Positions 12,565-29,909 of a DNA stretch of 33,715 nt are shown here, one piece after another. Each line of letters starts with the position of its first letter. The first letter of the stretch is position 1. The notes beneath the pieces were generated by a model that worked only from the letters and a program-made list of their open reading frames with translations, ran no database searches and had not been told where the DNA came from. A program made the translations under genes and the position numbers. Source of the stretch: Halalkalibacter oceani (GTDB lineage: Bacteria; Bacillota; Bacilli; Bacillales; Bacillaceae_D); the NCBI RefSeq assembly GCF_023715605.1, contig NZ_JAMBOL010000036.1, forward strand, positions 1 through 33,715, given 5' to 3'.

Positions 12565-12682
12565 GGGCGTCGGCTTCGCGCGTTACGCGGATGGCTGAAA
12601 AAAGCCCGTTTTCAGCCATTCTTAAACGATTGTAACAGCTCCGCACAACGCTTCTAAGAAAAGCCGCTGTGCGGTTTTTTTA
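12565..12682. repeat. Dispersed 118-nt repeat, copy A
   Basis: 118 nt, from GGGCGTCGGCTTC to the poly-T and TTA end. It is 93% identical (8 differences) to copy B at 23354-23471, with no gaps. It holds two hairpins: GATGGCTGAAAA/TTTTCAGCCAT, and CCGCACAACGCTT pairing with AAGCCGCTGTGCGG before T7, which is a plus-strand terminator for tag. It sits between convergent genes, and its last three bases (TTA) are the complement of the mscL stop codon. Confidence 0.9.
12650..12681 (+). terminator. Terminator of tag inside repeat copy A
   Basis: CCGCACA pairs with TGTGCGG, and an inner GCTT with AAGC, followed by seven T. Confidence 0.8.
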
Positions 12683-13060
12683 GTTTGATTGCTTTTGTAA
12701 GGCGTCTCTGATTTCACGCAGGAGGACGACCTGCTCGTCTTCTTTTTCAATTACTTCCTCGGCGGCTTTTTTCACAAAGCGGTCTCTTGTGATTTTGTTA
12801 AAAGCTTTCACGAAAATAAACAGGGCCGCTGCAATAATGAGAAAATCGATAATAGCCTGAATGAAAACGCCGTACGTAATGCCGTGATAGGCCCATTCTG
12901 AAGTGAAATCCGTATTGCCGAAAATCAAGGCGATTGACGGCATAATGATGTTTTCCACCAGGGCGTTGACAATGCTTGTAAACGCTCCCGCTATGACGAC
13001 CGCCACTGCTAAATCCAACACATTGCCTCTCATAATAAATTCCTTAAATTCTTTCCACAT
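12680..13060 (-). CDS. mscL: Large-conductance mechanosensitive channel MscL
   Basis: A 126-aa membrane protein that opens under membrane tension to release solutes on hypo-osmotic shock; it works as a homopentamer. It has the amphipathic N-terminus [21 protein letters not shown], the TM1 pore helix with the conserved Ala/Gly pattern ([21 protein letters not shown]), a short periplasmic loop, TM2 ([24 protein letters not shown]) and a charged C-terminal helix bundle. The size matches the family. The ATG follows AAGGAGAAG. Its stop codon coincides with the end of repeat copy A. Confidence 0.97.
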
Positions 13061-13247
13061 ATTTCTTCTCCTTTTTTATGTATATAGACTCCATTGTAAA
13101 TGAACGATCTTAAATTAAAGATGATTTCTTTTGAAGGGAATGTCAACTCTGTTTGTCGAAAACAGATCTTTTTTACGATGCTTTTGTCGATAGATGTAGA
13201 ATTTGTGTTTGAAAATTAGGAAATATGGTTGACGAAGAAGCCTAAAA

Positions 13248-13291
13248 AAAGGGTTGTGCGAAAAGGTTTTTGCTTTGGCACAGCCCTTTTA
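13248..13291 (-). terminator. Terminator of the GntR gene
   Basis: AAAGGGTTGTGC pairs with GCACAGCCCTTTT; on the minus strand it is followed by a seven-base U-run. It lies just downstream of the minus-strand GntR stop. Confidence 0.8.
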
Positions 13292-13311
13292 TTATCGGAG
13301 AGAATTTCCAA

Positions 13312-14286
13312 TTAATCGAGTCCTGCCTGAGAACCGGGAAGCTCATGCAACAGGTTTTCACTGCTTGCTTCGAGTTTCATCGGATATAGCTCCACTTTGT
13401 TGGGGGCGAGCTTTTTCAATTCAGGATAGACAGCGGCCGAGGCGTAAATCCTGTCCCATTTTGCCAGTGAATCTGAAGGCCTTCCGCTTTCTTCCCAGCC
13501 GAGCGTTTCCGAACGGATTTGCTCCAGCCCTGCTTCTCGGACCCGGTTCGCCATCCAACTTCCGCCAGCTTGGCCGAGACATACAAAAGCGACCCGGGTA
13601 TTTTGCTTCAGCTTGGCCAGGTCCAGTAGAAAGGACGTTTCAACAGTGGCGCCGATGACTAAAATCCTGCTATTGAAGCGTGAGAAGCATGTTTTCACTT
13701 CCTCAGCATGATTGAGTGTCGTCACAATAACGTGATATTGTTGAGCGAGCTGGCTGCATAATTCGTTTTTTTCCTGTAAGTCTTCGAGAAATGCCGTTTC
13801 CACTTTTTCTCCGGTCTCACGTTCAATGGCCTTTCGATAAAAAGGGTGGTCATGTCCTTTGCATTCGATCAGTACAATCCGGGCCTGTGCAGAGGAGGAA
13901 GGATGGAGGAGCAAAGTGTAGGCGAGGCCGGTGGTGAAAAACTGGCGCAGATCCAGTTCTTTGGCCTCGGCTTGATCGATTGTCTGTTTGATGAGATCAA
14001 AGAGAGAAGCCTGTTCTTTATAAAGCCGGTTGGCTTGGGCGGTCACCTGCGTTCCGCGGCCTTTGCTCATCGTGACGAGTCCTTCCTCCCGCAACTGATT
14101 ATATACCCAATTGACAGTGTTGCGGTTCATTCCTAATTGATCCGCCAATTGACTTGCGGCAGGAAGCATATCTCCTGTTCTAATAAGTCCGATGCCAATC
14201 AGGCATTTTAACTGCTCACGGATTTGAGTGTTCACATTAAACGTTAACTCAGGGTTCACTCGTAAAGGCAATTGTTTTTCTTCCAC
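13312..14286 (-). CDS. GntR family regulator with C-terminal sensor domain
   Basis: A 324-aa protein. The N-terminal GntR winged HTH (about 15-85) is clear: IREQLKCLIGIGLIRTGDMLPAASQLADQLGMNRNTVNWVYNQLREEGLV. About 220 residues follow with alternating strands and helices (VIVTTLNHAEEV, RILVIGATVE, RVAFVCLG), suggesting a Rossmann-like sensor rather than an aminotransferase (MocR) domain: there is no PLP-lysine motif and it is too short. The HTH is closest to the YtrA/YhcF type. It is divergent from the HPP gene, and the same motif follows both -10 boxes, so it likely represses both. Confidence 0.83.
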   Translation of the reverse strand: MEEKQLPLRVNPELTFNVNTQIREQLKCLIGIGLIRTGDMLPAASQLADQLGMNRNTVNWVYNQLREEGLVTMSKGRGTQVTAQANRLYKEQASLFDLIKQTIDQAEAKELDLRQFFTTGLAYTLLLHPSSSAQARIVLIECKGHDHPFYRKAIERETGEKVETAFLEDLQEKNELCSQLAQQYHVIVTTLNHAEEVKTCFSRFNSRILVIGATVETSFLLDLAKLKQNTRVAFVCLGQAGGSWMANRVREAGLEQIRSETLGWEESGRPSDSLAKWDRIYASAAVYPELKKLAPNKVELYPMKLEASSENLLHELPGSQAGLD

Positions 14287-14301
14287 TACACCCAGCTCCT
14301 A

Positions 14302-14351
14302 TTATCATAGTTGACTAGTTATATTATAATGTGGAACTTTCATTTAATCAA
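14302..14351 (-). promoter_or_regulatory. Promoter and operator of the GntR gene
   Basis: On the minus strand: TTGATT (14351-14346), 17-nt spacer, TATAAT (14328-14323), then the operator ATAACTAGTCAACTATGATAA (14322-14302), which starts directly after the -10 box. Confidence 0.65.
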
Positions 14352-14374
14352 ACATAATCCCTGTAAAATAATGA

Positions 14375-14423
14375 TTGACACAATAAAGGAACTATAATAT
14401 AACTAAATAACTAGTTAACTATA
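14375..14423 (+). promoter_or_regulatory. Promoter and operator of the HPP gene
   Basis: TTGACA (14375-14380), 17-nt spacer, TATAAC (14398-14403), then the operator ATAACTAGTTAACTATA (14407-14423). This is nearly the same motif, in the same orientation relative to the gene, as the one downstream of the GntR promoter. Confidence 0.7.
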
Positions 14424-14440
14424 AATTTAGGGGTGGTTTT

Positions 14441-14956
14441 ATGGACGCAACAGAATTTTTTACGAAAATGAAAGGACAAGGCAGAAGTCCGCTTAAAGTC
14501 GTTCCGCGCAACGCAATCATTGGAGGGATTGGCGGTTTTTTTGCAATCGGCGTTTTGGCTATGCTGACAAACTGGACATCGAACTTATGGATTATGGCGC
14601 CTTTCGGGGCAAGCTGTGTTCTGGCATTCGGGCTTTGGGAGGCACCGCTTTCCCAGCCGCGCAACATTATCGGCGGGCATTTTATCTCCACTTTTGTCGG
14701 TTTGGCGTTGTTGCATCTGTTTGGTCAAAGCATGTGGGTCATGGCAACAGGAGTCGGTCTGGCAATTGCGATGATGATGCTGACAAAAACGACCCATCCA
14801 CCTGCGGGAGCTGATCCGTTAGTCGTGATAGCAGCTGGCAGCGGCTGGTCATTTCTATTGATGCCTGTGCTCGTCGGTTCGGTCATCATTGTCCTTGCCG
14901 CATTGCTGATCAACAATCTTGACCATGGACGTCGCTATCCTACTTTTTGGTGGTAA
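14441..14956 (+). CDS. HPP family membrane protein
   Basis: A 171-aa integral membrane protein with four hydrophobic segments. The name-giving HPP motif is present in TTHPPAGADPLV at about residues 121-132, with APFGASCVLAFG and PLSQPRNIIGGH upstream, all conserved in PF04982. Some plant and cyanobacterial relatives carry nitrite across membranes, but the substrate here is unknown. ATG 14441 follows AGGGGTGG. The gene stands alone and ends in a terminator; a strong promoter with a GntR operator controls it. Confidence 0.88.
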   Translation: MDATEFFTKMKGQGRSPLKVVPRNAIIGGIGGFFAIGVLAMLTNWTSNLWIMAPFGASCVLAFGLWEAPLSQPRNIIGGHFISTFVGLALLHLFGQSMWVMATGVGLAIAMMMLTKTTHPPAGADPLVVIAAGSGWSFLLMPVLVGSVIIVLAALLINNLDHGRRYPTFWW

Positions 14957-14973
14957 GCTCATTGCAATGAAAA

Positions 14974-15018
14974 GCTGGAATAAGAGGGGGATGTCTCCCT
15001 TTTATTCTGGTTTTTTTA
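14974..15018 (+). terminator. Terminator of the HPP gene
   Basis: CTGGAATAAGAGGG pairs (with G-U pairs) with CCCTTTTATTCTGG, followed by TTTTTTT. Confidence 0.85.
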
Positions 15019-15092
15019 TTTGAAACCTTTCCTAGGAACATACGAAACAAGCCGCGAATTAGTAGATTTTTTAAATAATTAATGGATTTGGG

Positions 15093-15121
15093 TTGACGTG
15101 TAATAATGTATACATTATTAT
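15093..15121 (+). promoter_or_regulatory. Promoter with embedded GTATAC operator, fused to larA
   Basis: TTGACG (15093-15098), 17-nt spacer, TATTAT (15116-15121). A perfect 20-bp palindrome TAATAATGTATACATTATTA (15101-15120) fills the spacer. The GTATAC core matches the operators before the FadR-type gene at 16228 and family preferences (TNGTATACNA-like), so that regulator probably binds here. Confidence 0.7.
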
Positions 15122-15132
15122 TTATACAAAAG

Positions 15133-16131
15133 ATGCCAGACTCGGCGATTACATTGCTTGTCGCTACCGGCAATCATCGGCCGAATACGGAAGAGGAATT
15201 AAAGGGAATGGTTGGCGAAGCTAACTTTTCCCGCTTTCGGATCGTCAACCACAATGCTTCCGATCCTGAGCAATTGGTGTATTTAGGAAAGACGAAGCAT
15301 GGGCTGGATGTTGAGGTCAACCGGCTCGTCGTCGAAGCGGATGTGACGATTACGACCGGGATTATTACGCCTCATCAGACGGCCGGATTTAGCGGCGGCC
15401 GCAAAAGTATTGTCCCGGGCGTGGCCGGGGTGAAAAGCTTAATGCAGCACCACTCCTTTCCAATTCGTTCCGAAGAACCGGTGATGGGGAAGATGGAACA
15501 TAATCGCTTTCACGAAGAAGCCGTAGAAGCGGCGCGGAAGGTCGGCGTTGATTTCATCGTCAATGTTGTCAAAAATAATGAAGGCCACATCGTCGGAGTA
15601 GTGGCCGGGGATTTAGAAGAAGCACATGAAGCCGGGGTACAAATTTGCAGGCACGCCTGGGAGCTGGAGGTACCTGAGCTTTATGACATTACGATTGTAT
15701 CGCCGGGTGGATATCCGAAAGACTTTGATATGCATCAATCGCAAAAGGCACTCGCTTCGGCGGAGATCATCACGAAGCCGGGCGGATCGATTATTTTAGT
15801 GGCGGAATGCCAGGATGGAATCGGTTCTTTCAGTAAGCTGATGGCAGAATCGAGGGATCCGCAGGAAGTGATTAGACGCTTTAAGGAAGACGGCTTCAGC
15901 AGTCAGAATCATTCCTCAAAAGCCTATATGTATGCCAGGGCGCTGGCGAAATATCATATTTACTTTATCTCCGGTCATTTGGACCCGATCGAGTTGAAGA
16001 AAATGTTTTTTGTTCCTTCGGAAACAATTGAAGCTGCTTATCACAATGCAAAGCAAATGTGTGCCTCTGTTCCTAAAGTAGCCCTGCTGCCCTATGCAGT
16101 CGATTGCCTTCTGAAAGTAAAGCCAACCTAA
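15133..16131 (+). pseudogene. 5'-truncated LarA-like (nickel-dependent racemase) gene
   Basis: About 332 aa resembling the LarA (lactate racemase) family, whose members have about 420-430 aa. It starts abruptly at PDSAITLLVATGNHRPNTEEEL, which corresponds to residue ~95 of LarA. The His of ATGxHR, the PHQTAGFSGG His, the cofactor-linking Lys in GGRKS and the His in LMQHHS are present; the N-terminal part with the Asp/Arg of the DxTRP-type motif is missing. An ATG at 15106 extends the frame but lies inside the promoter spacer; ATG 15133 has no ribosome site and lies about 12 nt after the -10 box. Probably a deletion derivative; a frameshift or assembly artefact cannot be excluded. Confidence 0.8.
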
Positions 16132-16155
16132 AAAGTAAAAAAAAGACAAAAATCA

Positions 16156-16196
16156 TTGTCTTTGAAAAATGTATACATTATACTATTAGTATACTA
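16156..16196 (+). promoter_or_regulatory. Promoter and twin GTATAC operators of the FadR-type gene
   Basis: TTGTCT (16156-16161), 17-nt spacer, TATACT (16179-16184). Palindrome AATGTATACATT (16168-16179) covers the spacer and TAGTATACTA (16187-16196) the start of transcription. The GTATAC centres are 18 bp apart. Confidence 0.65.
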
Positions 16197-16227
16197 TTTA
16201 GGTGATACAGGTGGTGATTGAAAAGGC

Positions 16228-16893
16228 ATGAAAAAGGTAGTTTCACAGTTAGCTAAAGATCGGATTGCGGCGATATTAAGAGAAGAAATTTTATCAAGAA
16301 ATTTAAAGCCCGGTCAAAAGTTACTAGAAAAAGAGCTATGCGAGAAATTAGGAGTCAGCCGCACGCCTTTGCGTGAAGCGATTCGCAATTTAGAAGTGGA
16401 AGGATTAGTGGAAAGCATCCCAAACCGGGGCTCACGGGTGAAGGTGATGACAACAAAGGATGTTGTCAATTTGTTTGAGCTGCGAATTGAGCTGGAAGCG
16501 ATGGCGACGAGGAAGTCAGTTCCCCATTTGACTGAGGCGGATATTGAAGGGCTTCATGCGATCCAACAGGAGCTGCTGGAAGCGACGGCGAGAAGCTCTT
16601 GGAGCGAGGTCGATGCGCTCAATAAAAAATTTCATTCTTTATTGAGATGCAAAGGAGAGAATGATCGGCTCCTTTCCATCATTGATCAGCTCTATCAAGT
16701 GGGAGGAATTATTCGGGTATCGACATTTTCGATTCCGGGCCGCGCTTTAAAGGCATTAGAGGAGCATGTGGACATATTGGAGGCGGTAGCTGCTAGAGAT
16801 GCTGAGCGTGCCGGCCAGCTCATGTACGATCATTTAACAGTGGCGAGAGATACGCTCTTAAAGCATTTGGAAGATCTACAGTTTTCTGAATAG
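16228..16893 (+). CDS. FadR-subfamily GntR regulator (FCD domain)
   Basis: A 221-aa repressor/activator. The GntR HTH is at about 8-72 (ILREEILSRNLKPGQKLLEKELCEKLGVSRTPLREAIRNLEVEGLVE, then PNRGSRV) and the all-helical FCD ligand domain at about 80-215, with metal-ligand candidates in NKKFHSLL, EEHVDIL and YDHLTVA. FCD members usually sense small carboxylates. It sits between the larA remnant and an AEC transporter, which fits control of 2-hydroxyacid uptake and use. It is likely autoregulated through the two GTATAC palindromes. Confidence 0.9.
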   Translation: MKKVVSQLAKDRIAAILREEILSRNLKPGQKLLEKELCEKLGVSRTPLREAIRNLEVEGLVESIPNRGSRVKVMTTKDVVNLFELRIELEAMATRKSVPHLTEADIEGLHAIQQELLEATARSSWSEVDALNKKFHSLLRCKGENDRLLSIIDQLYQVGGIIRVSTFSIPGRALKALEEHVDILEAVAARDAERAGQLMYDHLTVARDTLLKHLEDLQFSE

Positions 16894-16960
16894 CAACGAC
16901 TGTTTGTGCAGGGAGTGGGAGAAGCACCGGAATGAAAGGTGAGTAGGACAAGATGACAAA

Positions 16961-17869
16961 TTGGGATATGAAGAAGTAGTGGACATTTTATCGATTGTTT
17001 TACCGATTTTCATCATCTTTGCATGTGGCTTTTTTCTAAAGAAAAAATTTAATGGTGATATCCGGACATTGTCAAATATTAGCTTCAACTGCTTATTGCC
17101 GGCACTTGTCTTTAAAAATTTCTACAGTTCCACCATCAGCGGCGATATTGGCTGGCTCGTATTGTTTGAAGTGGTGCTCCTCCTTGCGATCATTGTGATC
17201 AGTATCATTTTGGCAAGATGCTTCCGTTTTAATAAAGAGAGGGAAACGGGCCTGCTTCTCGTCGCCTCCTTTCCGAATGCGGGGAATTACGGGAGCTCGA
17301 TTATTTTACTGGCGTATGGCCAGGAGGGCTTTCAGTGGGCAATCGCTTTTTTCGTTATTCAATCCATGATGATGAATTCTCTCGGGGTGTTATTTGCCGC
17401 CCAGGACAAAGGCGGGATTGGTGATACGCTGAAGAAGCTTTTAAAAATGCCCGTCCTCTATGCCGGATTACTGGGCTTTCTGTGCCAGTCGTTAACCATT
17501 GAGCTTCATCCGATTGTTTACCATCCAATCGAGATGCTCAGTCAGGCGATGATTCCGATGCTTATGCTGTTGCTCGGAATGCAGCTGGCAACGATTAAAC
17601 GCTTCAGCTTTGCGAAGGGGATTGCGCTCGGTGTAACGATTCGCCTCGTGCTTTCCCCCGTACTCGCTTTTCTTTTGTTGCCTTTCTTTTCGTTTGATGA
17701 GATGGCAAGCAACGTCATTCTTCTTCAGGCGGCGATGCCGGCCGCGATCGTCCCCGTTTTATTGGCGAATCAATACGGACGAGAGCCGGAAATGGTCGCC
17801 GGAATTACGCTGTTCAGTACGATTGTGTCGGCGGGAACGATCTCGTTTCTCTTATGGCTATTGCATTAA
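16961..17869 (+). CDS. AEC family transporter
   Basis: About 302 aa with ten hydrophobic segments in two five-helix halves, typical of the auxin efflux carrier (AEC/BASS-like) family, which in Firmicutes includes malate and other organic-acid permeases. Conserved Asn/Gly stretches in FPNAGNYGSSIILLAYGQEGFQWAI are family marks. The start is uncertain: TTG 16961 gives the best length but has a weakly spaced AGGA; GTG 16979 is possible; an ATG at 16953 is in another frame and stops after eight codons. It follows the FadR-type gene by 67 nt, probably in one operon. Confidence 0.85.
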   Translation: MGYEEVVDILSIVLPIFIIFACGFFLKKKFNGDIRTLSNISFNCLLPALVFKNFYSSTISGDIGWLVLFEVVLLLAIIVISIILARCFRFNKERETGLLLVASFPNAGNYGSSIILLAYGQEGFQWAIAFFVIQSMMMNSLGVLFAAQDKGGIGDTLKKLLKMPVLYAGLLGFLCQSLTIELHPIVYHPIEMLSQAMIPMLMLLLGMQLATIKRFSFAKGIALGVTIRLVLSPVLAFLLLPFFSFDEMASNVILLQAAMPAAIVPVLLANQYGREPEMVAGITLFSTIVSAGTISFLLWLLH

Positions 17870-17902
17870 ATGAACCGGGTTGACAGCGAAGAGGTCAATT
17901 GA

Positions 17903-17944
17903 AAAATAAGAACTTGCGCCTGATGGCAAGTTCTTATTTTTTTG
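17903..17944. terminator. Bidirectional terminator
   Basis: A perfect 15-bp stem (17903-17917 with 17926-17940) around an 8-nt loop, ending in TTTTTTTT; an A-run on the other side gives a minus-strand U-run. It separates the convergent AEC and SDR genes. Confidence 0.9.
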
Positions 17945-17958
17945 ATAGATGAGTTGAT

Positions 17959-18750
17959 CTAAAAAATAGTCGGTACCATCCCGCCATCCATACGAATAGG
18001 AGAGCCTTTAAATGCGGAGGCATAAGGGCTGCATAGAAAGGCAGCGAGTCGACCGATTTCAACTGGTCTAATAAAACGCTGTATCTCAGATTGAGGGAGG
18101 TTTGCCAGCATAAATGCTTCCTCCTTTTCTGAGAATGTCATCTTATTTGGATACAAGCTGTCAATGATCTGTTGTACGTTTTCCGACAGGGTTGGTCCCG
18201 GCATAATCGTATTGACTGTAACTTCTGTCCCTTTTGTTAATTTAGACAGGCTCTTGGCTAAGGATAATAGCATTGATTTGGTCATACAATACTGAGGCAT
18301 TTGCCCCGATGGCATCACCGCCTCCTCACTAGCAATAAAGAGGATCCGACCATAGCCGCGCTGCACCATGGTAGGTAAATAAAATTTGGATAATCCGTTT
18401 GCGGCAAGGACATTGGTGCGAAAGTATGTTTCCCATATTTGATCGTCAATGTCCTCATATTGCATGATTTCGTAAATTCCCATATTGTTAACGAGAATAT
18501 CAATATTCGGATACTTTTCAAATAAGGCTTCTCTCTGTTTATGATCGACCAGATCAGCGATAGCATTTTGCGGAGAGGTCTGAGGGAATTCTGCCTTTAT
18601 CTGATTGACTGTTCGTTCTACTTCGTCCTCCTTTCGGCCATTGATCACTACATTCACGCCTTCTTTGGCAAGTTCAAAAGCAATTGCTTTCCCGATACCT
18701 TTTGTTGACCCTGTAACTAAAGCTGTTTTAGTGTGTAGGTTCATTTCCAT
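17959..18750 (-). CDS. Short-chain dehydrogenase/reductase
   Basis: A 263-aa NAD(P)-dependent classical SDR. Rossmann cofactor motif TGSTKGIG at about 14-21; NNMG in place of the usual NNAG; catalytic Ser in IASEEAVM, then the Tyr and Lys in QYCMTKS; the C-terminal MDGGM motif. The residue after the first cofactor strand (INGRKEDE) suggests NADPH preference through the Arg. It is the second gene of a minus-strand operon, 21 nt after the AraC-type gene. The substrate is unknown. Confidence 0.9.
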   Translation of the reverse strand: MEMNLHTKTALVTGSTKGIGKAIAFELAKEGVNVVINGRKEDEVERTVNQIKAEFPQTSPQNAIADLVDHKQREALFEKYPNIDILVNNMGIYEIMQYEDIDDQIWETYFRTNVLAANGLSKFYLPTMVQRGYGRILFIASEEAVMPSGQMPQYCMTKSMLLSLAKSLSKLTKGTEVTVNTIMPGPTLSENVQQIIDSLYPNKMTFSEKEEAFMLANLPQSEIQRFIRPVEIGRLAAFLCSPYASAFKGSPIRMDGGMVPTIF

Positions 18751-18771
18751 TTATATCCCTCTTTCCTTGTT

Positions 18772-19806
18772 TTACTTATCACGCTTCAGAAAGCGCTCTT
18801 TTGCACGGATATCTAAATGCTGTATACGCCATTGAGAAGGTGTATCGCCTTCCCAATGGCGGAAAGCCCGGTAGAACGAACTCTCGTCTTCATAGCCAAT
18901 TAAAAAAGCTATTTCCTTAATGTCGAGTGTAGGGTTTGCCAGGTATTCCCTTGCCTGTTCATGCCGGGCTTGTATCAACAGTTGTTTGAAACTCGTTCCC
19001 TCAGCTATAAGCCGGCGTTGCAATGTGCGGTCGCTTATCCCTAATTCGCCCGCAACAGAATGAATAGAAGGACGCCCCCCTGTCAGGCTGCGTTTCATAA
19101 TCCACTTGACCTTCCTGGTGACTGAAAAGCTATCGTGTAGCTCGTCACACGACTGGTCTAAAACCGGAGTAAGAATTTCCAGTAATTCTGCGTTGTAGGA
19201 GACAAAAGGGAGGTCCAACTCACTTCGCTCCAAGGTCAGACGGTTGCAGGCTGCATTGTTCTGGATCTGACAGCCAAAGTATGCTTCAAGTGTTTCACTG
19301 TCTCCCATTGGATGGGAAAATTCAACTGCCCTTGCTTTCAATGGTTGCCCTGTACCACGGCGGCCTAGTTCAAGAAGAAAGGCCAGTGTGATCCCAACGA
19401 GCATTGGCGGTCCGGATTGCTCTGGACGGAGCCATTTCAGTTCGATTGTGCAGTGTCCATCTTCCTCTGTAATGTGTAATGATTCGGGGGGACATAGCTG
19501 TTTGTAGCGTGCCATCCTGTATAAGGCGTCGCGATAGTTGCGCGCATGGTAAGTCGCCAAGATCGGCGGCGGATATTTCGATGTTTCAAAGGAGGTTGCC
19601 AGCTGGATGATTCCTTTAGCTGTGTCGCCAATGAGATCCGAGTAACTTTGCCAAATCGCAAAATATTGAGCTGTGTTGACAGCGGGTTCTGAAATAATCG
19701 TAAGTGGTAGTTGCGCTTTCCGAATGACGTCATGAGGAGCAATCCCCAATTGTCGCAGTCCCGACCAAAATCCTTCTGGGATTTTAATTCGTGTATGAGA
19801 TGTCAT
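18772..19806 (-). CDS. AraC family regulator (OruR-type N-terminal domain)
   Basis: A 344-aa regulator. The N-terminal ~200 residues match the arabinose-binding-like domain of OruR/ArgR-type AraC proteins (PF12625), with the LGRRGTGQPLKARAVEFSHP block. The C-terminal double HTH covers about 235-335: SVAGELGISDRTLQRRLIAE, then EIAFLIGYEDESSFYRAFRHW. This type usually occurs in high-GC bacteria and mycobacteria but is also seen in Bacillaceae. The ATG is preceded by AAGGAGGG. It is upstream of the SDR gene and most likely its activator. Confidence 0.9.
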   Translation of the reverse strand: MTSHTRIKIPEGFWSGLRQLGIAPHDVIRKAQLPLTIISEPAVNTAQYFAIWQSYSDLIGDTAKGIIQLATSFETSKYPPPILATYHARNYRDALYRMARYKQLCPPESLHITEEDGHCTIELKWLRPEQSGPPMLVGITLAFLLELGRRGTGQPLKARAVEFSHPMGDSETLEAYFGCQIQNNAACNRLTLERSELDLPFVSYNAELLEILTPVLDQSCDELHDSFSVTRKVKWIMKRSLTGGRPSIHSVAGELGISDRTLQRRLIAEGTSFKQLLIQARHEQAREYLANPTLDIKEIAFLIGYEDESSFYRAFRHWEGDTPSQWRIQHLDIRAKERFLKRDK

Positions 19807-20156
19807 TCATACCGTCCCTCCTTTGTATGAAAAGAAAAGCAGCTGTGCGATTTTCTCCATCTGCACAGTATTCGTTTCGCTTTTTATTGTCACTTATTAT
19901 ACTAACGATCTCTTGTTCCTCTGTAACTAACAAATAACGCCAATTCAATTGCCGATGACGCCAGGCGGCGACCGTCCAAGAAGCAAATAAGTGGGACCGA
20001 GGCAGTTAATGAAACGTTTGTTTAAGTCGTATTCTTTGTATAGATATTGCTTTGTCGCTTATAATAAACTGGTAAATATTCACACTCTTATAAAAAGAGG
20101 TGGGGAGTTTTACAGGTGGGTACTAATTAAGGTGGTAAACAAAGGAGGAAGAAGCA
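19807..20156. other. Divergent control region, AraC gene / FMN reductase
   Basis: The 350-nt gap contains a minus-strand TATAAT (19901-19896) for the AraC gene and the promoter of the FMN reductase (next entry). An unusually long leader (about 85 nt) precedes the reductase; I see no riboswitch fold in it. Confidence 0.45.
20036..20065 (+). promoter_or_regulatory. Promoter of the FMN reductase gene
   Basis: TTGTAT (20036-20041), 18-nt spacer, TATAAT (20060-20065). Confidence 0.5.
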
Positions 20157-20711: not shown

Positions 20712-20719
20712 ATAAAACG

Positions 20720-20763
20720 AAAATCACCTATGGAAGATATCGACCTTCTGTAGGTGATTTTTT
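20720..20763 (+). terminator. Terminator of the FMN reductase gene
   Basis: AAATCACCTA (20721-20730) pairs with TAGGTGATTT (20751-20760), then further T. Confidence 0.85.
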
Positions 20764-20790
20764 GCCCTGCTTAAAAAAACAAAAATTACT

Positions 20791-20831: not shown

Positions 20832-20839
20832 GCAATTGC

Positions 20840-20853: not shown

Positions 20854-20878
20854 AAAATGGATAAGGGGAGATGGGAAG

Positions 20879-22216: not shown

Positions 22217-22230
22217 ATTCATAGATTAAC

Positions 22231-22265
22231 ATGTACTGATTGCTTAAGGCATTCAGTACATTTTT
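22231..22265 (+). terminator. Hairpin/terminator between xylA and galM
   Basis: ATGTACTGA (22231-22239) pairs with TCAGTACAT (22253-22261) followed by TTTT. Probably partial termination, as galM begins 24 nt later with no promoter of its own in view. Confidence 0.7.
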
Positions 22266-22289
22266 ATATGAGGCAGGGAAGGGGAGGCA

Positions 22290-23321
22290 ATGATGAAAGT
22301 CAGTGAACGGATATTTGGCAAAATCAACGGGCAGACAGTGAAAGCCTTTTTGCTGAAAAACGACAACGGAATGGAAGTCGGCTGTATCAACTATGGCTGC
22401 ACGATAACAAAGATTGTTGTTCCGGATAAGCACGGCAGGCTTGAAAATGTCGTCATAGGATATGAAACGCTGGAGAAATATCTCGATCAGACTGCTTTTT
22501 TTGGCTGCGTCATCGGCCGGGTGGCAGGACGGATTGGCAATGCCGAGTTTGAATTGGACGGCATCGTGCACCGCCTGGCGAAAAATGAAGGGGAACACCA
22601 TCTTCATGGCGGGAAGACCGGTTTTGATAAAGTCGTGTGGGAGGCCCGGACCGAAGAAAACGCTGATGAGCTGAAAGTAATCTTTACCCATGAAAGCCCT
22701 AATCAGACAGAAGGCTATCCGGGTCGTGTAAGCATCAAGGTGACCTATCACGTAAACAATAAAAACGAGCTGATGATCTCTTATCGGGCGGTGACGGATC
22801 AGAAAACGATTGTTAATCTGACGAACCATTCTTATTTTAACTTGAGCGGCAATGGACAAAGGGATGTGCTTCAACATAAGCTTACGTTAAAAAGCGACCG
22901 CTTTTTGCCACTGAATGAGAGTTTGCTGCCGACAGGCGAAAAGCTTGACGTGGCGAATACCCCATTTGATTTCCGGACAGGCAGACGTCTGCAGGACGGG
23001 GTCACGTCGCATCATCCGCAGAATCAGTTGGCCGGAGGCGGCTACGATCATCCATTCATTTTAAGCGCGAACCATCAGGAAGAAATCCGTTTAGTTGATG
23101 AAGAAAGTGGGAGGGAGCTAATCGTCGAAACAGATGAGCCTTGCGTTGTCGTTTATACAGCCAATACGATTGAAGAAGACCGTTGGAAAAAGCATATGGG
23201 CGTTTGCCTAGAGACACAGCATCATCCTGACGCTGTCCATCACGCTGATTTTCCGTCTATCCTTTTGGAAAAAGATGAGGAGTACCGGACGGCGACGACG
23301 TACCGCTTTGCGGTTACATAA
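22290..23321 (+). CDS. galM: Aldose 1-epimerase (mutarotase)
   Basis: A 343-aa enzyme interconverting the alpha and beta anomers of aldoses. GalM signatures: GRVAGRIGNAEFELDG with the sugar-binding Asn/Arg region, HLHGGKTGFDK, the catalytic His in NLTNHSYFNLSG, GGGYDHPF, and the catalytic Glu in GVCLETQHHPDAVHH. In this locus it would convert the beta-xylose released by the inverting GH43 enzyme chain, or beta-xylose from uptake, to the alpha form used by XylA. There are two adjacent ATGs: 22290 is only 2 nt from GGGGAGG, so 22293 may be the real start. Confidence 0.95.
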   Translation: MMKVSERIFGKINGQTVKAFLLKNDNGMEVGCINYGCTITKIVVPDKHGRLENVVIGYETLEKYLDQTAFFGCVIGRVAGRIGNAEFELDGIVHRLAKNEGEHHLHGGKTGFDKVVWEARTEENADELKVIFTHESPNQTEGYPGRVSIKVTYHVNNKNELMISYRAVTDQKTIVNLTNHSYFNLSGNGQRDVLQHKLTLKSDRFLPLNESLLPTGEKLDVANTPFDFRTGRRLQDGVTSHHPQNQLAGGGYDHPFILSANHQEEIRLVDEESGRELIVETDEPCVVVYTANTIEEDRWKKHMGVCLETQHHPDAVHHADFPSILLEKDEEYRTATTYRFAVT

Positions 23322-23353
23322 GAATGGCCCTGCCGGGAGAATGGTTCCTGACA

Positions 23354-23471
23354 GGGCGTCGGCTTCGCGCGTTACGCTGATGGCTGAAAAAAGCCCGTTT
23401 TCAGCCATCCTTAAACGATTGTAACGGCTCCGCACGCCGCTTCTAAGAAAAGCCGCTACGCGGTTTTCTTA
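23354..23471. repeat. Dispersed 118-nt repeat, copy B
   Basis: Same length as copy A with 8 substitutions and no gaps. It has the same GATGGCTGAAAA/TTTTCAGCCATC hairpin and a right-hand part CCGCACGCCGCTT...AAGCCGCTACGCGG with a less regular stem. It lies between convergent galM and xynB; its last TTA is the complement of the xynB stop codon. Confidence 0.9.
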
Positions 23472-25079
23472 ATGATGCCGCTCTTTATAGATAAAGTAAT
23501 CAAAGTCGGCGTGTAAACGTTGGCCGGACGTGTCTTGACATTGCATCCCGACAAAGGCACCGGTGAAGAAACCGCCTCCCTGGATATAGTCATCCGACAG
23601 TTTATAGGAGTGAAAGTCGATCGGGATTTCTGTCCACTCTTTGCCGGTAAAGGAGTAGGAATAACGGTAAAGGTGAGTGTCTACGTTAACGCGCAAATAA
23701 ACGTAGTCGATATTCTCCGGGATGACAATCGGGCGGTCCCGCAACGGCTGATCAAATGTAAAATGATCGCATGTCGTCAGTTCAAGCACTCTGCCTTTTT
23801 CTTCATTCCATGTTAGCTGGAGCGCGGTCCAGTTTTGCGTATTGTAATAGTTTACTAGTCCGGCCGCCTGCTGGAATGTCTCAGGGTGAAAGGCCACCTT
23901 TGTTTCGGCGGTGAAGGTGAAATGTTGCCAGCGCCTTGCCACATAGGCCTGGGTAAACTTCGATGTCAGTGATTCCCTTCCGTAGAGCCGCAGATGGCCG
24001 GGGCGTTCCTTGAGTGAAGCAATGCTCTCATCAAGCGGAATCCGCAGCGTCTGGAAATGGAGGCTCAATGTATCCTGGTCAAAATCATCCTTTTCGGCAA
24101 CGTCGTCCCATTTTACTTCGTCGATGGCCGGTCCTTCGATTTCAAGGGCCGGTTCATTGCCGCCGACGACATAAGGCCAGTCGTTTTTCCATTCAAGCCG
24201 CTGAATCGCCGTTTCTCTTCCGAGCGGGCAGAAGCCGCGCGGGTCGAGTAGCGGTTGATTTTCTCTTGGTAACGGTCTGCCTGTTAAATGAACGAGAAAC
24301 CATTCATCGGTATGCGTCTGAACGATTGAAGCGTGGCCGGCCTTTTGCAGCGGGTTTCTCGGATAAGGAAACGATGTAATAAGCGGGTTTTCCGGATGAA
24401 CGTCATAAGGTCCCCATATATTTTTCGAACGGGCGATTGTCGCCTGGTGGTCATATTTTGTACCGCCTTCAGCCGTCAGCAAATAATAATAGCCGTTGGC
24501 TTTATATACATGCGGCGCCTCGGTCAGCTTAATGTCGGTTCCTTTGAAAATGATTTCCTTTTTGCCGACCAGCTTCTGCTGTTCGACGTCATATTCCTGA
24601 AGAACGATCCCGTAAAAATTATGATGAGAGACGCGGTGATCCCAAACCATGTTTACGAAGTATTTTTTTCCGTCGTCATCATGGAATAAGGAAGGGTCGA
24701 ATCCTGAACTGTTCATATGGATTGGCTCTGACCATTCACCGTCAATCGTCTCACATGTAACGAGGTAGTTATGACAATCCTTCCATTGGCCCTCGGTCAC
24801 TTTTACGTCCGTATAGATGAGCCAAAACATCCCGTCATGATAGGAGAGGGCCGGCGCCCATACTCCGCCGGAGTCCGGGTTTCCGATCATCTGCAGCTGG
24901 CTGAGACGGTTTAACGGCCGGGAAACGAGCCGCCAGTTTTTTAAGTCCTTTGAATGGTAGATGCCTACACCGGGAAACCATTCGAAGGTCGAAACGGCAA
25001 TGTAATAATCTTCACCGGCGCGGCAAATAGACGGGTCCGGGTTGAAGCCTGGTAAAATCGGGTTTCGAATGATCGACAT
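23469..25079 (-). CDS. xynB: Beta-xylosidase, glycoside hydrolase family 43
   Basis: A 536-aa enzyme without signal peptide, therefore cytoplasmic, that cuts xylobiose and short xylo-oligosaccharides to xylose with inversion. It has a five-bladed propeller domain (about 1-320) and a C-terminal beta-sandwich (about 330-536). Catalytic residues are D15 (GFNPDPS), D128 ([10 protein letters not shown]) and E187 (KLTEAPH), the same numbers as in Geobacillus XynB3 when ATG 25079 is used as start; an in-frame GTG at 25088 is less likely. AGAGGTGA precedes the ATG. It lies 73 nt behind xylR with a weak terminator and a cre site between. Confidence 0.95.
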
Positions 25080-25105
25080 GTTTATCACCTCTGCATGTAT
25101 TTTAG

Positions 25106-25121
25106 TAAAGCGCTTACAGAT
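25106..25121 (-). promoter_or_regulatory. cre site and possible promoter of xynB
   Basis: TGTAAGCGCTTTAC on the minus strand (AGTAAAGCGCTTACAG on plus) matches cre at 12 of 14 positions. It overlaps the -10 of a possible minus-strand promoter, TTGGCA-N17-TTTACT. No xylO dyad is visible here. Confidence 0.6.
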
Positions 25122-25130
25122 CGCTGTGCC

Positions 25131-25154
25131 AAAAGGCCGGACTTTCAGCCTTTT
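25131..25154 (-). terminator. Weak terminator overlapping the xylR stop
   Basis: AAAAGGC pairs with GCCTTTT on the minus strand; the U-run is only the last four bases of the stem. It may limit read-through from xylR into xynB. Confidence 0.5.
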
Positions 25155-26337
25155 AATTTTCCTCTAAATTAATCGCCAGAAAATGCTCGGTAGAGGAGGC
25201 GGCAACCCCCAGGGCGGCTGAGCGCTTTTCTAATTTGGAAAAATCAATTTGCAAGTTTTTCTGGTGCGTGGCCAATGCATGTTTTTTCAAGCTGTCCCTC
25301 AGTATCTCTTCAAGCCATGTTTGCAAGGCGGCGAGCCGGTTGCCGATAATAATTTGTTCAGGATTAAACGTATTAATAATGTTGTTAATGCCGATTGCCA
25401 GATTTTCGCCGAGCTTTCCGATTAACTGCAAGGTTCTTTCATCCCCAGAGCTTGCCAGTTGAACAACGGCCTCCAAGGTTGCTTCTTCCCCCGTTGCAAA
25501 GATCCCTTGCTGTTCGGCCATTTGCAGCAGCGCTTTTTCAGAGGCGTAGAGCTCCCAGCAGCCTTTGTTGCCACAGTTGCAGAGCGGTCCATCAAGATTG
25601 ATCGTCATATGGCCGAGTTCACCGGATAAACCGTTATGCCCTTTATAAAGCTCGCCGTTCAAAATAAGTCCGACCCCGATGCCAATTCCGCCGCTAATAT
25701 AAATGATGTCATTGCATTTTTGGCCGATGCCGAATTTCTTTTCCCCATAAGCCCCGGCATTTGCTTCGTTTTCCACCTTTACGGGCACATGATATTTTTT
25801 TTCAAGAAGGCTCTTCAGATCAACATTTCTCCAGTTCAGGTTAGGAGCGAGCAAAATCTCCTCAGCGGTGCTTACTGTCCCGGGCACGCCAATCCCGATG
25901 CCGACGACGCCGTAGGGGCTGTCAGGCATGTTGGCCATTAATTCGTCGATTACCTCATAAAGGATGTCACTAATCTCCCTGAAGGTCGGGTGGTTCACTT
26001 TAATCTGCTTCTCATAGCAAATTACGCCTTGAAGGTCGGTAAGGACAGCGAGAACATAGTTGACGCCAATATCAATGCCAATTGAGTAGCCGGCGGTTTG
26101 ATTAAACAGCAGCATGACCGGTCTTCTTCCGCCACTTGAAACACCTGGTCCGGATTCGAGAATTAATTGTTCCTCCAGCAGCTCATTAACGAGCGAGGAA
26201 ACGGTTCCTTTATTAAGGCCAGTTTTTGTGGCGAGGGCCGCTCTGGAAACGGGAAAAAATTGTTTAATCGCATGAAGGATCAAGGACTTATTTCGTTTTT
26301 TGACGACATGTTGGTTGAACGTTTGAGTCATTTTCAT
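25153..26337 (-). CDS. xylR: Xylose repressor, ROK family
   Basis: A 394-aa repressor. The N-terminal winged HTH (about 15-75: [39 protein letters not shown]) is followed by a ROK sugar-kinase-like domain with [16 protein letters not shown], the sugar-binding [11 protein letters not shown] and the ROK signature ending in a zinc site, [24 protein letters not shown]. It resembles Bacillus XylR, which lets go of xylO when xylose binds. Two ATGs (26337, 26331) are candidates and the ribosome site is weak. It is divergent from the importer operon and in line with xynB. Confidence 0.95.
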
Positions 26338-26407
26338 GATTGGTCCACGCTTTCTTGAGTTTAGATTTAGGCTGAGTTCATTACAGTCCGCCGGTCGTCA
26401 TATGGAA

Positions 26408-26435
26408 TGCAACCGCTTCCTTGAGCACTATTATA
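26408..26435 (-). promoter_or_regulatory. xylR -10 box and cre site
   Basis: On the minus strand TATAAT (26435-26430) is followed 9 nt later by a cre that reads TGCAACCGCTTCCT on plus (26408-26421), matching TGNAANCGNTNNCW throughout. CcpA bound here could block xylR transcription. It is also about 50 bp upstream of the importer -35 box, so it could affect that too. Confidence 0.6.
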
Positions 26436-26459
26436 ACATGTATTATTCAATTTATCACT

Positions 26460-26500
26460 TAGTTTATCCACTAGACAAACGATGTTTTTCATGCTATTCT
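26460..26500 (+). promoter_or_regulatory. Importer promoter with XylR operator
   Basis: xylO-like dyad TAGTTTAT-N7-ACAAACGA (26460-26482) covers the -35 box TAGACA (26472-26477); 17-nt spacer; -10 TATTCT (26495-26500). The geometry is the same as at xylA, including the shared TAGACAAAC stretch. Confidence 0.75.
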
Positions 26501-26558
26501 AGCCTTGAGTTAGCGAATACCTAACTTCTTCCAAATAATAAGTAAGGGGGATTCCGCA

Positions 26559-27866
26559 ATGTTGAAAAGGAAAGCGGTTACATCGTTTTTTATGTTGCTG
26601 GCAGGGGTGCTGATTGCTACAGGATGCTCAAACACAAATGAAGATGCTGCAGTGGACGATAACGGAGCAGAAGGAGGCGCAACGGTAGAGTTCATGCATT
26701 TATGGCCACAGGGAAGCTCGGCAGAACATTACCGGATTGTCAATGAAATCATTGCCGATTTTGAAGAGGAGCATGGGATTTCGATTGATCTTCAAGTGTT
26801 AAGCAATGAGCAGTATAAAGATCAAATTACGGTTTTGTCCGCAGCGAATGAGCTTCCGGATGTCGGGATGACGTGGGCGGCCGGATACTTGGATCCATTT
26901 GTTGAAGGGAACAAGTTCACCCCGTTGGACGATATGCTGGAAGGCGGCCTGCGTGATGAATTTGTAGCGGGTACGCTCGAAGCGTATGAAAAAGATGGCC
27001 AGACGTACGGACTGCCTTTAGAATTAAATACGGTTTATGTTTACTATAATAAAGCGATTTTTGATGAGTATAATCTTGAAGCACCAACAACGTATGAGGA
27101 ATTTGAGCAGGTGATCGCGACCTTAAATGAAAATAACGTGCAGCCGATCGCGCTCGGCAACAGAGACCGTTGGACAGGTTCAATGTGGTTCATGTACTTT
27201 GCAGACCGGATTGGCGGAACCGATGTGCTGACAAATGCGATTAACCGCTCTGGATCATTTGAAGATCCAGCTTTAGTCGAAGCGGCGGCAAAGGTTCAGG
27301 AGATGGTCGATAACGACTCGTTTGTAAGCGGATTCAACGGATTGGCTGATGAGGAAGCAAAAAGCATGTTTATGAATGAGCAGGCGGCGATGTATATGAT
27401 CGCGACATGGGATTTGCCAAACTATACAACGAATGAGGATGTTCCGCAGGAATTCAGGGACAATGTAGGCTATTTCAAGTTCCCGACTGTGAACGGAGCA
27501 GGAGATGTCAACAGCTTTGTCGGTGGGCCTGGTGTCGGATTATTTGTCGCGGAAGACTCTGATGTGCAGGAAGAAGCGAAGCAGTTTGCCGCTTATTTTG
27601 TTGAGGAATGGGGCTCGAGAGCTGTAGCGGAAGCGGGCGTGATTCCAGCGACGATTGTCGACGGCGAAGGACTCGATTTACCTGAGATGTATGTCGAGGT
27701 ATTGGAAGATTTGAATGATGCTACGAATCTGACTCTTTATGCAGATGTTCAAATGACGGCTGCCGTAGCGCAAACGCATTTGGATTTAATTCAATCTTTA
27801 TTCGGCGGGGAGATCACCCCTGAAGAATTTGCCAGACAACATGAAGAAGCTCTTTCGGCACAGTAA
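26559..27866 (+). CDS. Sugar-binding lipoprotein of an ABC importer (xylo-oligosaccharide type)
   Basis: A 435-aa extracellular solute-binding protein, family 1. The signal peptide (LKRKAVTSFFMLLAGVLIATGC) ends in a lipobox with Cys23, so it is anchored to the outer face of the membrane by a lipid. MalE-like features follow: FMHLWPQGSSAEHYRIVNEI, SVLSAANELPDVGMTWAAGY-like region, and MNEQAAMYMIATWDLPN. Its place beside xylR, xynB and xylB points to xylobiose/xylo-oligosaccharides, comparable to XynE/BxlE; that substrate is inferred. A near-perfect cre lies in codons 4-8. Two stem-loops follow the gene. Confidence 0.92.
   Translation: MLKRKAVTSFFMLLAGVLIATGCSNTNEDAAVDDNGAEGGATVEFMHLWPQGSSAEHYRIVNEIIADFEEEHGISIDLQVLSNEQYKDQITVLSAANELPDVGMTWAAGYLDPFVEGNKFTPLDDMLEGGLRDEFVAGTLEAYEKDGQTYGLPLELNTVYVYYNKAIFDEYNLEAPTTYEEFEQVIATLNENNVQPIALGNRDRWTGSMWFMYFADRIGGTDVLTNAINRSGSFEDPALVEAAAKVQEMVDNDSFVSGFNGLADEEAKSMFMNEQAAMYMIATWDLPNYTTNEDVPQEFRDNVGYFKFPTVNGAGDVNSFVGGPGVGLFVAEDSDVQEEAKQFAAYFVEEWGSRAVAEAGVIPATIVDGEGLDLPEMYVEVLEDLNDATNLTLYADVQMTAAVAQTHLDLIQSLFGGEITPEEFARQHEEALSAQ
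26569..26582 (+). promoter_or_regulatory. cre site inside the start of the lipoprotein gene
   Basis: GGAAAGCGGTTACA matches cre at 13 of 14 positions and lies in codons 4-8, a typical place for CcpA roadblock sites in carbohydrate genes. Confidence 0.7.
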
Positions 27867-27916
27867 TACAGCTTTACTCTCGTAATCTGGCAACGAAATA
27901 ATGGCCTCACTAAAAA

Positions 27917-27950
27917 CAGCAGCTTCCATACAGTCACCAGGAAGCTGCTG
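27917..27950 (+). other. 11-bp stem-loop after the lipoprotein gene
   Basis: CAGCAGCTTCC (27917-27927) pairs perfectly with GGAAGCTGCTG (27940-27950) around a 12-nt loop. No U-run follows, so it is better seen as an mRNA 3' stabiliser than as a terminator. Confidence 0.65.
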
Positions 27951-28023
27951 AAACAGTATGACTTTTCAGTGGCCTCTTCCGTACGGACGTGTAAAAACCA
28001 GGCGCAGGCCTCGCTCGCTGCTT

Positions 28024-28073
28024 CAAGCCTGGAAAAAGGGGAAAATCAACCTTTTTATCCAGGCTCTTTTCTA
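28024..28073 (+). terminator. Long hairpin between lipoprotein and permease genes
   Basis: AGCCTGGA pairs with TCCAGGCT and inner AAAAAGG with CCTTTTT, followed by CTTTTCT. It is probably a partial terminator that lets the binding protein be made in excess over the permeases. Confidence 0.75.
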
Positions 28074-28097
28074 TTTCGCAAATAAGGGGGTATTGAT

Positions 28098-28976
28098 ATG
28101 AACAAAGTGATGTCCAATAAATGGTTTATCTCTTTCTATATTCTCCCTGCATTGTTACTCGTTGGTCTATTAATCTTCATTCCTTTAGTGTTAACCGGTT
28201 ATTATGGTTTGATGAATTGGGACGGAATTGGCGCAATGCAGTTTATCGGCCTGGAAAATTATATGAACGTTCTCCAGGATACAAACTTCTGGCAAAGTGC
28301 CGGACACTCGTTTTTATTAGCTCTATTTTCGACTGTCAGTCTTGTTATTTATTTAGCTGTTTCGATGATTTTAGCTTCCAAAATCAAAGGGGCAGATCTG
28401 TTAAGAAAGATTTACTTAATTCCGATGCTGCTCTCGTCAGTCGCGATTGCCCAGCTGTGGATTAAAATCTATAATCCTTCAAACGGAATGCTGAATACGA
28501 TACTCGCGGCATTCGGTGTGCAAAACCCGCCGCTATGGCTCGCTGATCCGAACATTGTCCTTTATTCGATCTTCATTCCGATTTTGTGGCAATATGCCGG
28601 GTTTTATATTCTGATTTATTATGCGGCGCTGAAAAGTATCCCTGAATCAATCATCGAGGCGGCGAAAATTGATGGGGCGACGCCATTTCAGATAGCGACC
28701 CGGATTAAGCTGCCTTTAATTATGGGCGTGATCAAAGTGACGATTGTGCTGGCGATTGTCGGCTCGCTGAAATACTTTGATTTGATTTACGTCATGACCG
28801 GCGGCGGGCCAAATGGAGCGAGTGAAGTGATGGCCTCTTATATGTACAAACTTGCTTTTGGTAACTATAACTTCGGCTACGGAAGCGCAGTCGGCTTTAT
28901 GCTGCTTCTGATCACCTTGATCGTGACGATCATTATCCGCAAGCTGACCGCTGACAAAGAAGAGATCCAATATTAA
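28098..28976 (+). CDS. ABC sugar importer, permease 1 (MalF type)
   Basis: A 292-aa membrane protein with six hydrophobic segments. The EAA loop that docks the ATPase is EAAKIDGATPFQIATRIKLP at about residues 191-210. It is close in size to AraP/MsmF/XynF. ATG 28098 follows AAGGGGG. It is 14 nt ahead of the second permease, and the pair would form the transmembrane heterodimer. No ATPase is encoded in the operon; in bacilli a shared MsmX-type ATPase usually serves such importers. Confidence 0.93.
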   Translation: MNKVMSNKWFISFYILPALLLVGLLIFIPLVLTGYYGLMNWDGIGAMQFIGLENYMNVLQDTNFWQSAGHSFLLALFSTVSLVIYLAVSMILASKIKGADLLRKIYLIPMLLSSVAIAQLWIKIYNPSNGMLNTILAAFGVQNPPLWLADPNIVLYSIFIPILWQYAGFYILIYYAALKSIPESIIEAAKIDGATPFQIATRIKLPLIMGVIKVTIVLAIVGSLKYFDLIYVMTGGGPNGASEVMASYMYKLAFGNYNFGYGSAVGFMLLLITLIVTIIIRKLTADKEEIQY

Positions 28977-28990
28977 AGGAGGTTTAGGCG

Positions 28991-29812
28991 ATGGGGCGTA
29001 TTGGTTATTTTTTTCTGTACCTTTGTTTAAGTGTTGTAGCTGTCTTTCAAATTTTCCCGATTATCTGGCTGTTTCTCTTTTCCTTAAAGAGCAATCGTGA
29101 AATTTTCGCCGGCTCACCATTTGCGCTTCCGCAGGAAATCAGATGGGAAAACTATTTAGCTGTCTGGGAAGGCGGAATCGGCAATTACTTTTGGAACAGC
29201 ATTTGGATTACCGGAGTTTCGATTATTTTGACGCTGTTAATTGCGAGTATGGCTGTTTTTGTGATTACGAGAATGAGATGGAAGCTGAGTAAGCTCGTAT
29301 TAGGGCTGTTTATGGTAGGGTTGATGATTCCGATTCATTCCGCGTTAATTCCGCTTTTCAGTATGTTTTTAAGTGTGAATTTAATCAATAATCCGCTGTC
29401 GATTGTGTTAACGTATACGGCTTACAACTTGCCGATCACGATCATGATTTTGCTTAGCTTTTATTATACGATTCCTAAAGAAATCGAAGAAGCGGCGATC
29501 ATTGACGGAGCGTCCCTGCACCGCCTGTTTTTTACGATTATTTTACCGATTTCCAGTCCGGTGCTGGCGACGACGGCGATTATTAATATGATTTATAACT
29601 GGAATGAGTTTGTTTTTGTAAATACGTTTATCAGTTCTGATGCTTACAAAACATTGACCGTCGGCATTCAAAACTTCGTCGGCCAATATATGACGGACTG
29701 GGGCGCGATCGGAGCGACGCTTGTCATTAGCGTGCTGCCGATTTTGATTGCCTTTCTGTTTTTCAGCAACAAAATTGTCGAAGGAATTTCATCGAGTGCG
29801 GTAAAAGGGTAG
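28991..29812 (+). CDS. ABC sugar importer, permease 2 (MalG type)
   Basis: A 273-aa membrane protein with six hydrophobic segments. The EAA loop is EEAAIIDGASLHRLFFTIILP at about residues 176-196, with the Gly at the usual place. ATG 28991 follows AAAGGAGG. It is the last gene of the importer operon and meets the minus-strand YesL-like gene; remnants of the dispersed repeat fill the junction. Confidence 0.93.
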   Translation: MGRIGYFFLYLCLSVVAVFQIFPIIWLFLFSLKSNREIFAGSPFALPQEIRWENYLAVWEGGIGNYFWNSIWITGVSIILTLLIASMAVFVITRMRWKLSKLVLGLFMVGLMIPIHSALIPLFSMFLSVNLINNPLSIVLTYTAYNLPITIMILLSFYYTIPKEIEEAAIIDGASLHRLFFTIILPISSPVLATTAIINMIYNWNEFVFVNTFISSDAYKTLTVGIQNFVGQYMTDWGAIGATLVISVLPILIAFLFFSNKIVEGISSSAVKG

Positions 29813-29815
29813 TGA

Positions 29816-29843
29816 TAAAAAAAGCCCCTACGCGCTTTTCTTA
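29816..29843. repeat. Partial copy D of the dispersed repeat
   Basis: AAAAAAGCCCCTACGCGC followed by TTTTCTTA resembles the last ~28 nt of copy B (AAGAAAAGCCGCTACGCGG, TTTTCTTA) with a few changes. It starts 3 nt after the permease stop. It can form a small hairpin (AAAAGC/GCTTTT) and may act as a weak terminator. Confidence 0.6.
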
Positions 29844-29868
29844 AAAAGAATAAAAATTTTGGAGGGCG

Positions 29869-29909
29869 GGGCGTCGGCTTCTAATAAAAACTGCTATGCG
29901 TTTTTCTTA
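29869..29909. repeat. Short copy C of the dispersed repeat (internal deletion)
   Basis: GGGCGTCGGCTTC, the left end of copies A and B, is joined directly to CTAATAAAAACTGCTATGCG and TTTTTCTTA, corresponding to their right end. About 77 nt are absent; the join falls at CGGCTTC/CCGCTTC, a short direct repeat in the full copies. The element provides the last codons and stop of the minus-strand YesL-like gene. Confidence 0.75.

Follow-up and report, generated by a model that had tools for sequence, protein, structure and literature searches.

The repeat in the window

The window (the whole stretch of DNA analysed, 33,715 nucleotides of Halalkalibacter oceani) carries a small structured repeat at the 3' ends of mscL-like, xynB-like and YesL-like open reading frames (ORFs). 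A repeat search of the window gives two copies, A (12564-12682) and B (23353-23471), of 119 nt each and 93% identical without gaps, in agreement with the equal length and identity given in the preliminary description of this DNA. The distance from A to B is 10.8 kb. The whole unit is longer on the left, with model matches at 12531-12682 and 23318-23471, and alignment of 30 copies with their flanks places its start at TAAGAAAGTATAAAATTTTCGGG, about 32 nt further left than first read, and its end at TTTTCTTA. The unit is about 150 nt long and consists of a left end, a covarying cruciform core and a terminator hairpin, with short ends TAAGAAA..TTTCTTA. The first reading did not include the left 32 nt, the conserved core, the upstream terminator or the replication-strand bias. 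The terminal hairpin is predicted from its form to act as a terminator. Copies of the A/B type are called fam1, and the window's own Halalkalibacter genome is called G000. The features in the window are as follows.

12531..12682, + strand: copy A, full unit (R1 match, 158.6 bits; alignment)
12564..12656, + strand: copy A core, cruciform (R2 match; family covariation)
12655..12682, + strand: copy A terminal hairpin with T-run, last letters TTA (sequence; predicted fold)
12519..12523, + strand: T-run immediately left of the copy A left end (sequence; statistics on upstream T-runs)
12680..12682, - strand: stop codon of the mscL-like ORF, the final TTA of copy A (ORF list)
23318..23471, + strand: copy B, model match, whose left 35 nt consist of the galM stop with its terminator hairpin in place of the usual left end (R1 model match; sequence)
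23327..23357, + strand: galM-side hairpin GCCCTG..CAGGGC, running into the copy B core (sequence; retained in the sister genome G007)
23469..23471, - strand: stop codon of the xynB-like ORF, the final TTA of copy B (ORF list)
29841..29909, + strand: copy C, an internal-deletion derivative with left end and terminal hairpin and without core (R1 match, E 1.6e-6; core present at the G007 site)
29816..29843, + strand: second hairpin of right-end type, directly before copy C (sequence)
29894..29896, - strand: TAG stop of the YesL-like ORF, within the copy C terminal hairpin (sequence; ORF list)

In copies A and B the final TTA is the stop codon of the facing gene, as had been described. Copy C had been said to end likewise, but the YesL-like ORF reads through its final TTA (29907-29909) and stops at the TAG inside the hairpin. 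Copy C has lost about 74 nt of core, and the same core is still present in the sister genome. A short left-end-like match at 8606-8679 was rejected as a further copy, being at chance level (E 0.37). At two places elsewhere (L043 and L058), fam1 cores have a different, native-looking terminator as the right hairpin, pointing to swappable modules. Another fam1 copy (L030) lies between a leader terminator and its downstream gene; we take this leader, from its motif, to be T-box-like.

Family size, core structure and distribution

A first-pass BLAST search of G000, in which 40 of 82 candidates were scored, gave at least 52 matches at E<=10, and a covariance model built from 22 copies gave at least 128 at E<=1, related sub-families included. 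Copy numbers from model scans are lower bounds. The many copies found show that A and B are not a local pair. From the 128 model matches, 55 fam1 copies were chosen by eye. The matches fall into several sub-families with one common core and differing ends. Across 100 aligned matches (95 distinct), 27 of the 32 core pairs have changed on both sides and 91.4% of cells pair; the covariation score is 0.353, compared with 0.155 after shuffling and no more than 0.083 when the structure is slid, in an alignment that was fitted to the model and favours it. Rfam scans of ten copy-bearing stretches gave no family at its gathering score over the element and no group II ribozyme there; mir-210 and isrK were rejected as its identity, their scores being far under their thresholds. 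The sole significant Rfam match is a c-di-GMP-II riboswitch (L176:65-149, - strand, 56.2 bits), which lies some 1.3 kb away from a G007 fam1 copy.

Model matches at E<=0.01 are present in 12 of the 13 genomes of the genus. Of 199 genomes of the order searched with a core-only model, R2, 13 have matches, and these belong to 7 of 97 genera and to 5 families; nine of the 13 have at least 20 or at least 21 matches each, and the other four have one to four. In Alkalihalobacillus (G039, with G084 and G149 of the same genus), left ends of fam1 type and terminal hairpins recur, and one G039 copy (L360) is identical to a copy in a record of Alkalihalobacillus bogoriensis (L264), which identifies G039 as this species. 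Copy A had no blastn match in either the phage or the plasmid collection, and a phage or plasmid origin was rejected on that absence in both.

A second sub-family, used as a control, is about 165-175 nt long, has the ends GARGCYRCTGAAAAA, shows clear 8-bp target duplications and is present in at least 40 copies in G000. Several of its copies lie directly upstream of a ribosome-binding site (L078 among the places), and at L079, L086, L088 and L089 its copies are nested at CTCACAAC in the hairpin arm of another core family (CCCGTTGTGAGAAACCCACTCACAACGGG). Tandem arrays of core plus hairpin with a period of about 150-165 nt are found at L206, L207, L054, L208 and L209, the first two being in H. 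alkaliphilus (G006:C3, near 99.8-100.5 kb and 123.9-124.5 kb).

Insertion sites in related genomes

The sister genome G007 (H. oceani P106), whose DNA is about 92% identical over the region, has a degraded copy at site A, an intact copy at site B and a full core at site C. In the stretches examined, R2 has no match at site C in six other genomes of the genus, nor at site B in the three with the galM-xynB order; by eye, the other genus genomes mostly have another hairpin at sites B and C, and none is visible in G003. Four genomes were searched for the right flanks of 20 copies from G000, of which G007 has 19; of the right flanks of 14 G007 copies, 13 were found in G000, one within a local repeat. 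Side by side, the two sister genomes have many sites in common, several decayed remnants and some empty sites. This insertion polymorphism bears out the earlier proposal of a mobile, terminator-bearing cassette.

The empty sites also reveal where the element enters. At three G007 copies (C80:166690, C22:64882 and C80:144957) the element starts within a few bases 3' of a host T-run, and the G000 counterparts, with no R2 match, keep the same terminator and T-run. Three further empty sites lie away from any terminator T-run, namely the G000 sites matching C91:66669 and C80:114910 of G007 and the G007 site matching C91:128598 of G000. The TAAGAAAG left end is intact in 24 of 85 copies (55 from G000 and 30 from G007, orthologs included); 20 of these 24 have T5 within 18 nt upstream and 14 have a terminator-like hairpin upstream, whereas among 678 positions drawn at random 3' of genes the numbers are 59 and 124. 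The T-run could be partly the element's own, yet the three empty sites carry it in the host.

Target duplication stands at the null level as a population property in 52 fam1 copies of G000 and in 52 copies of G084, and the same method detects clear 8-bp duplications in 19 copies of the control sub-family. C91:128598 is a single ambiguous case, for which a 9-bp duplication is one possible reading. Duplication of TA, as by IS630/mariner elements, was rejected as the sole account, the sister sites being without a simple TA gap. Judged by comparison of the sister sites, the element is mobile and inserts as a unit without target duplication.

Gene context and stop codons

Gene calls come from a small coding-score finder written for the purpose. 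Of the 55 G000 copies (E), 31 are flanked by same-direction gene pairs (>E>), 15 are arranged as >E<, 5 as <E>, 3 as <E< and 1 is at a contig end. The preliminary description proposed that the element targets convergent gene ends. This holds in G084, a genome of another family, where 31 of 52 copies lie in convergent junctions compared with 19 of 160 background junctions of at least 40 nt (p 3e-11); in the element's own genome the excess is not significant (15 of 54 classifiable copies versus 45 of 256, p 0.09).

The stop-codon register noted for copies A and B extends genome-wide in G000 and to G084. In G000, the stop of the facing gene is the last TTA of the element in 13 of the 18 copies that have a gene facing the right end, two of the 13 (C102:117298 and C91:66757) being trimmed model matches extended by eye. 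A T-run abuts a TTA stop at 7 of 94 background convergent ends (p 1e-8), of which two are fam1 remnants in our judgement. The exceptions to the register are C39:45116, C36:67336, C32:45992, C32:1587 and copy C of the window. For G084, 52 of at least 149 matches were examined (ranks 1-54, with two array members skipped). Of 39 facing copies, 26 have a TTA stop where the terminal hairpin ends, 17-29 nt past the core; in the background, counted by a measure that is not quite the same, a T-run meets a TTA stop at 2 of 42 ends (p 2e-9). Counted by eye the G084 number is 29, which adds L386, L399 and L415, all with another hairpin; at L389 and L398 the stop is inside a longer hairpin arm.

The first reading also had the element supply the stop, which the sister genome does not support. 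At C91:128598, C102:117298 and C50:2226, R2 finds nothing in G007, and the C-terminal residues and the stop are unchanged there; at these three sites the stop is therefore native and is abutted, not supplied, by the element. The stop is also the same at the G007 site of C11:122825 and the G000 counterpart of G007 C69:45753, but these sites are not clean because related cores lie nearby in the other orientation. The C-terminus of the xynB-like product differs from its relatives by a few residues, so at copy B the stop may be either native or the element's own. Sequence comparison shows, for a gene facing the right end, that the element usually abuts its TAA stop.

Replication strand

By GC skew, 53 of the 55 G000 copies are leading-strand, compared with 324 of 411 genes and 184 of 250 gene 3' ends (p 6e-5); when only contigs with an independently measured skew are counted, 34 of 35 are leading (p 0.001). 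The control sub-family has 22 leading and 15 lagging copies, with 3 of 40 unplaced. In G084, 46 of 52 copies are leading, which exceeds neither the share among genes (222 of 266, p 0.53) nor that among gene ends (128 of 157, p 0.29). All six lagging copies have the left end GCTAAAACA and apparently form one sub-family, as judged by eye and post hoc; a text pattern for removing one G084 sub-family caught 4 copies and missed others, and because the pattern was incomplete the raw figures are used. Convergent junctions provide a cleaner strand test because gene direction is symmetric there. Between convergent genes, where chance is one half, copies point with replication in 15 of 15 cases in G000 (p 6e-5) and 29 of 31 in G084 (p 5e-7). 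Among the matches listed for G149, for which only coordinates and strands were compared, those before 1.7 Mb are on the + strand and those after 2.7 Mb on the - strand, save one close pair at 3.508 Mb.

Proposed mechanism of insertion

Comparison of genomes shows insertion as a unit, no duplication at the population level, several copies 3' of a host T-run and mostly one replication orientation. The reading we favour, with a probability of about 0.6, is that of a structured mobile repeat, about 150 nt long and non-autonomous, which enters terminator or stop sites on a strand set by replication. Its terminator target, lack of duplication, preference for one strand and folded core, together with the absence of a group II ribozyme over the element in the Rfam scans and of a Y1 transposase in G000, lead us to propose mobilisation in trans on the replication-exposed strand as the likeliest route. 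Some enzyme acting on the replication-exposed single strand would recognise the folded core or the hairpin, as with endonuclease-less group IIC introns or IS200/IS605-type elements, and its target would be the T-rich terminator/TTA sequence. Once inserted, the hairpin would serve as a terminator for both flanking genes, and such insertions may be harmless or useful for that reason. The tandem arrays may come from re-insertion or from recombination between hairpins. A Y1/RAYT partner has no positive link with the element: the Y1 transposase domain PF01797 has 0 matches in element-rich G000 and 12 in G002, which is nearly element-free, and it is matched in 12 of 13 genus genomes. A Y1 enzyme might once have been present and since lost. 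Counted against the favoured reading are this Y1 result, with no mobilising enzyme found, the raw strand share in G084, the three insertions away from a T-run and the p of 0.09 for convergent junctions in the own genome.

An ordinary MITE moved by a DDE transposase, by cut and paste through short terminal repeats and with a target duplication that is eroded or only TA, is unlikely. The ends TAAGAAA..TTTCTTA, the 8-bp duplications of a control sub-family with the same core and the possible 9-bp duplication at C91:128598 are what such an element would have, but the method that detects duplications in the control finds no signal in either set of 52 copies, and fam1 orientation tracks replication while the control is split between the strands.

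Somewhat less likely still is a host 3'-end module, either a terminator or a 3' UTR RNA, that is selected at gene ends and copied by recombination without being mainly mobile. The strong covariation, the 3'-end placement with its exact stop register and a hairpin module that varies yet stays a hairpin would all fit such a module; presence and absence between close relatives with intact flanks, decayed copies, arrays and ordinary terminators at the same junctions in relatives speak against it. A recent local duplication confined to the window, which the identity and spacing of A and B might suggest, has practically no chance of being right and is already refuted by the genome-wide family and by the sister genome, where B and a degraded form of A occupy the same sites.

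Relationship to known elements

The nearest described kind, compared by published description only, are the BOX, RUP and SPRITE repeats of Streptococcus pneumoniae, which in the available portion of the source are small repeats whose RNA is predicted to be structured and which are enriched between convergent genes (PMC3049150). The same portion describes SPRITE as terminator-like and near gene 3' ends, counts 36 cases of a BOX copy encoding the stop codon of a gene, and has all three mirroring the coding bias, with 61-63% on the leading strand (PMC3049150). As far as that description goes, the present element differs in three respects: almost every convergent copy is oriented with replication, the register to the stop is exact, and several bacterial families have the core in common. 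The excerpts available for bcr1 of the Bacillus cereus group describe a multi-copy, mobile-like chromosomal repeat (PMC6542083, PMC2267715) whose mobility is linked to TTTAT repeats (PMC6542083); by this description it resembles the element in size and copy number. Bhal-1 and Bhal-2 of Bacillus halodurans, stem-loop families of 74-76 bp in many copies according to the part of the source at hand (PMC2267715), are, again by description only, also structured multi-copy repeats in an alkaliphilic Bacillus relative.

Group IIC introns are described, in the accessible part of the source, as inserting at intrinsic terminators, with endonuclease-less introns priming from the replication fork (PMC4424553). 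To the extent of that description, the element resembles them in its insertion 3' of a terminator T-run, as seen for 20 of 24 intact left ends and three empty sites, with exceptions; it differs in having no group II ribozyme by Rfam, a length of only about 150 nt and no reading frame. Single-stranded DNA elements of the IS200/IS605 type such as IS608 target the lagging-strand template and have structured ends, according to the section of the source available (PMC6006769). The element shares with IS200/IS605 or REP/RAYT systems the lack of target duplication and a replication-strand bias, the latter with the limit that the raw G084 share is not above genes; unlike them, it resides in a genome without a Y1 transposase. 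Elements of the IS200/IS605 type are not known to make a target duplication. Among open-licence papers, judged by title and the start of the abstract, none was found that describes the element.

Significance

Other small repeats have been described at the 3' ends of genes. This one combines a covarying core in five families, a near-uniform replication orientation between convergent genes and a stop register exact to the single nucleotide. It is possible, although we regard it as doubtful, that widespread, replication-directed, structured mobile elements enter single-stranded DNA at terminator/TAA sites, install bidirectional terminators at the stops of head-on genes and so reshape convergent transcription in several families of Bacillales. 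The finding makes it testable how a non-coding element would sense replication direction and terminator sites, and whether convergent genes may get their terminators from mobile DNA.
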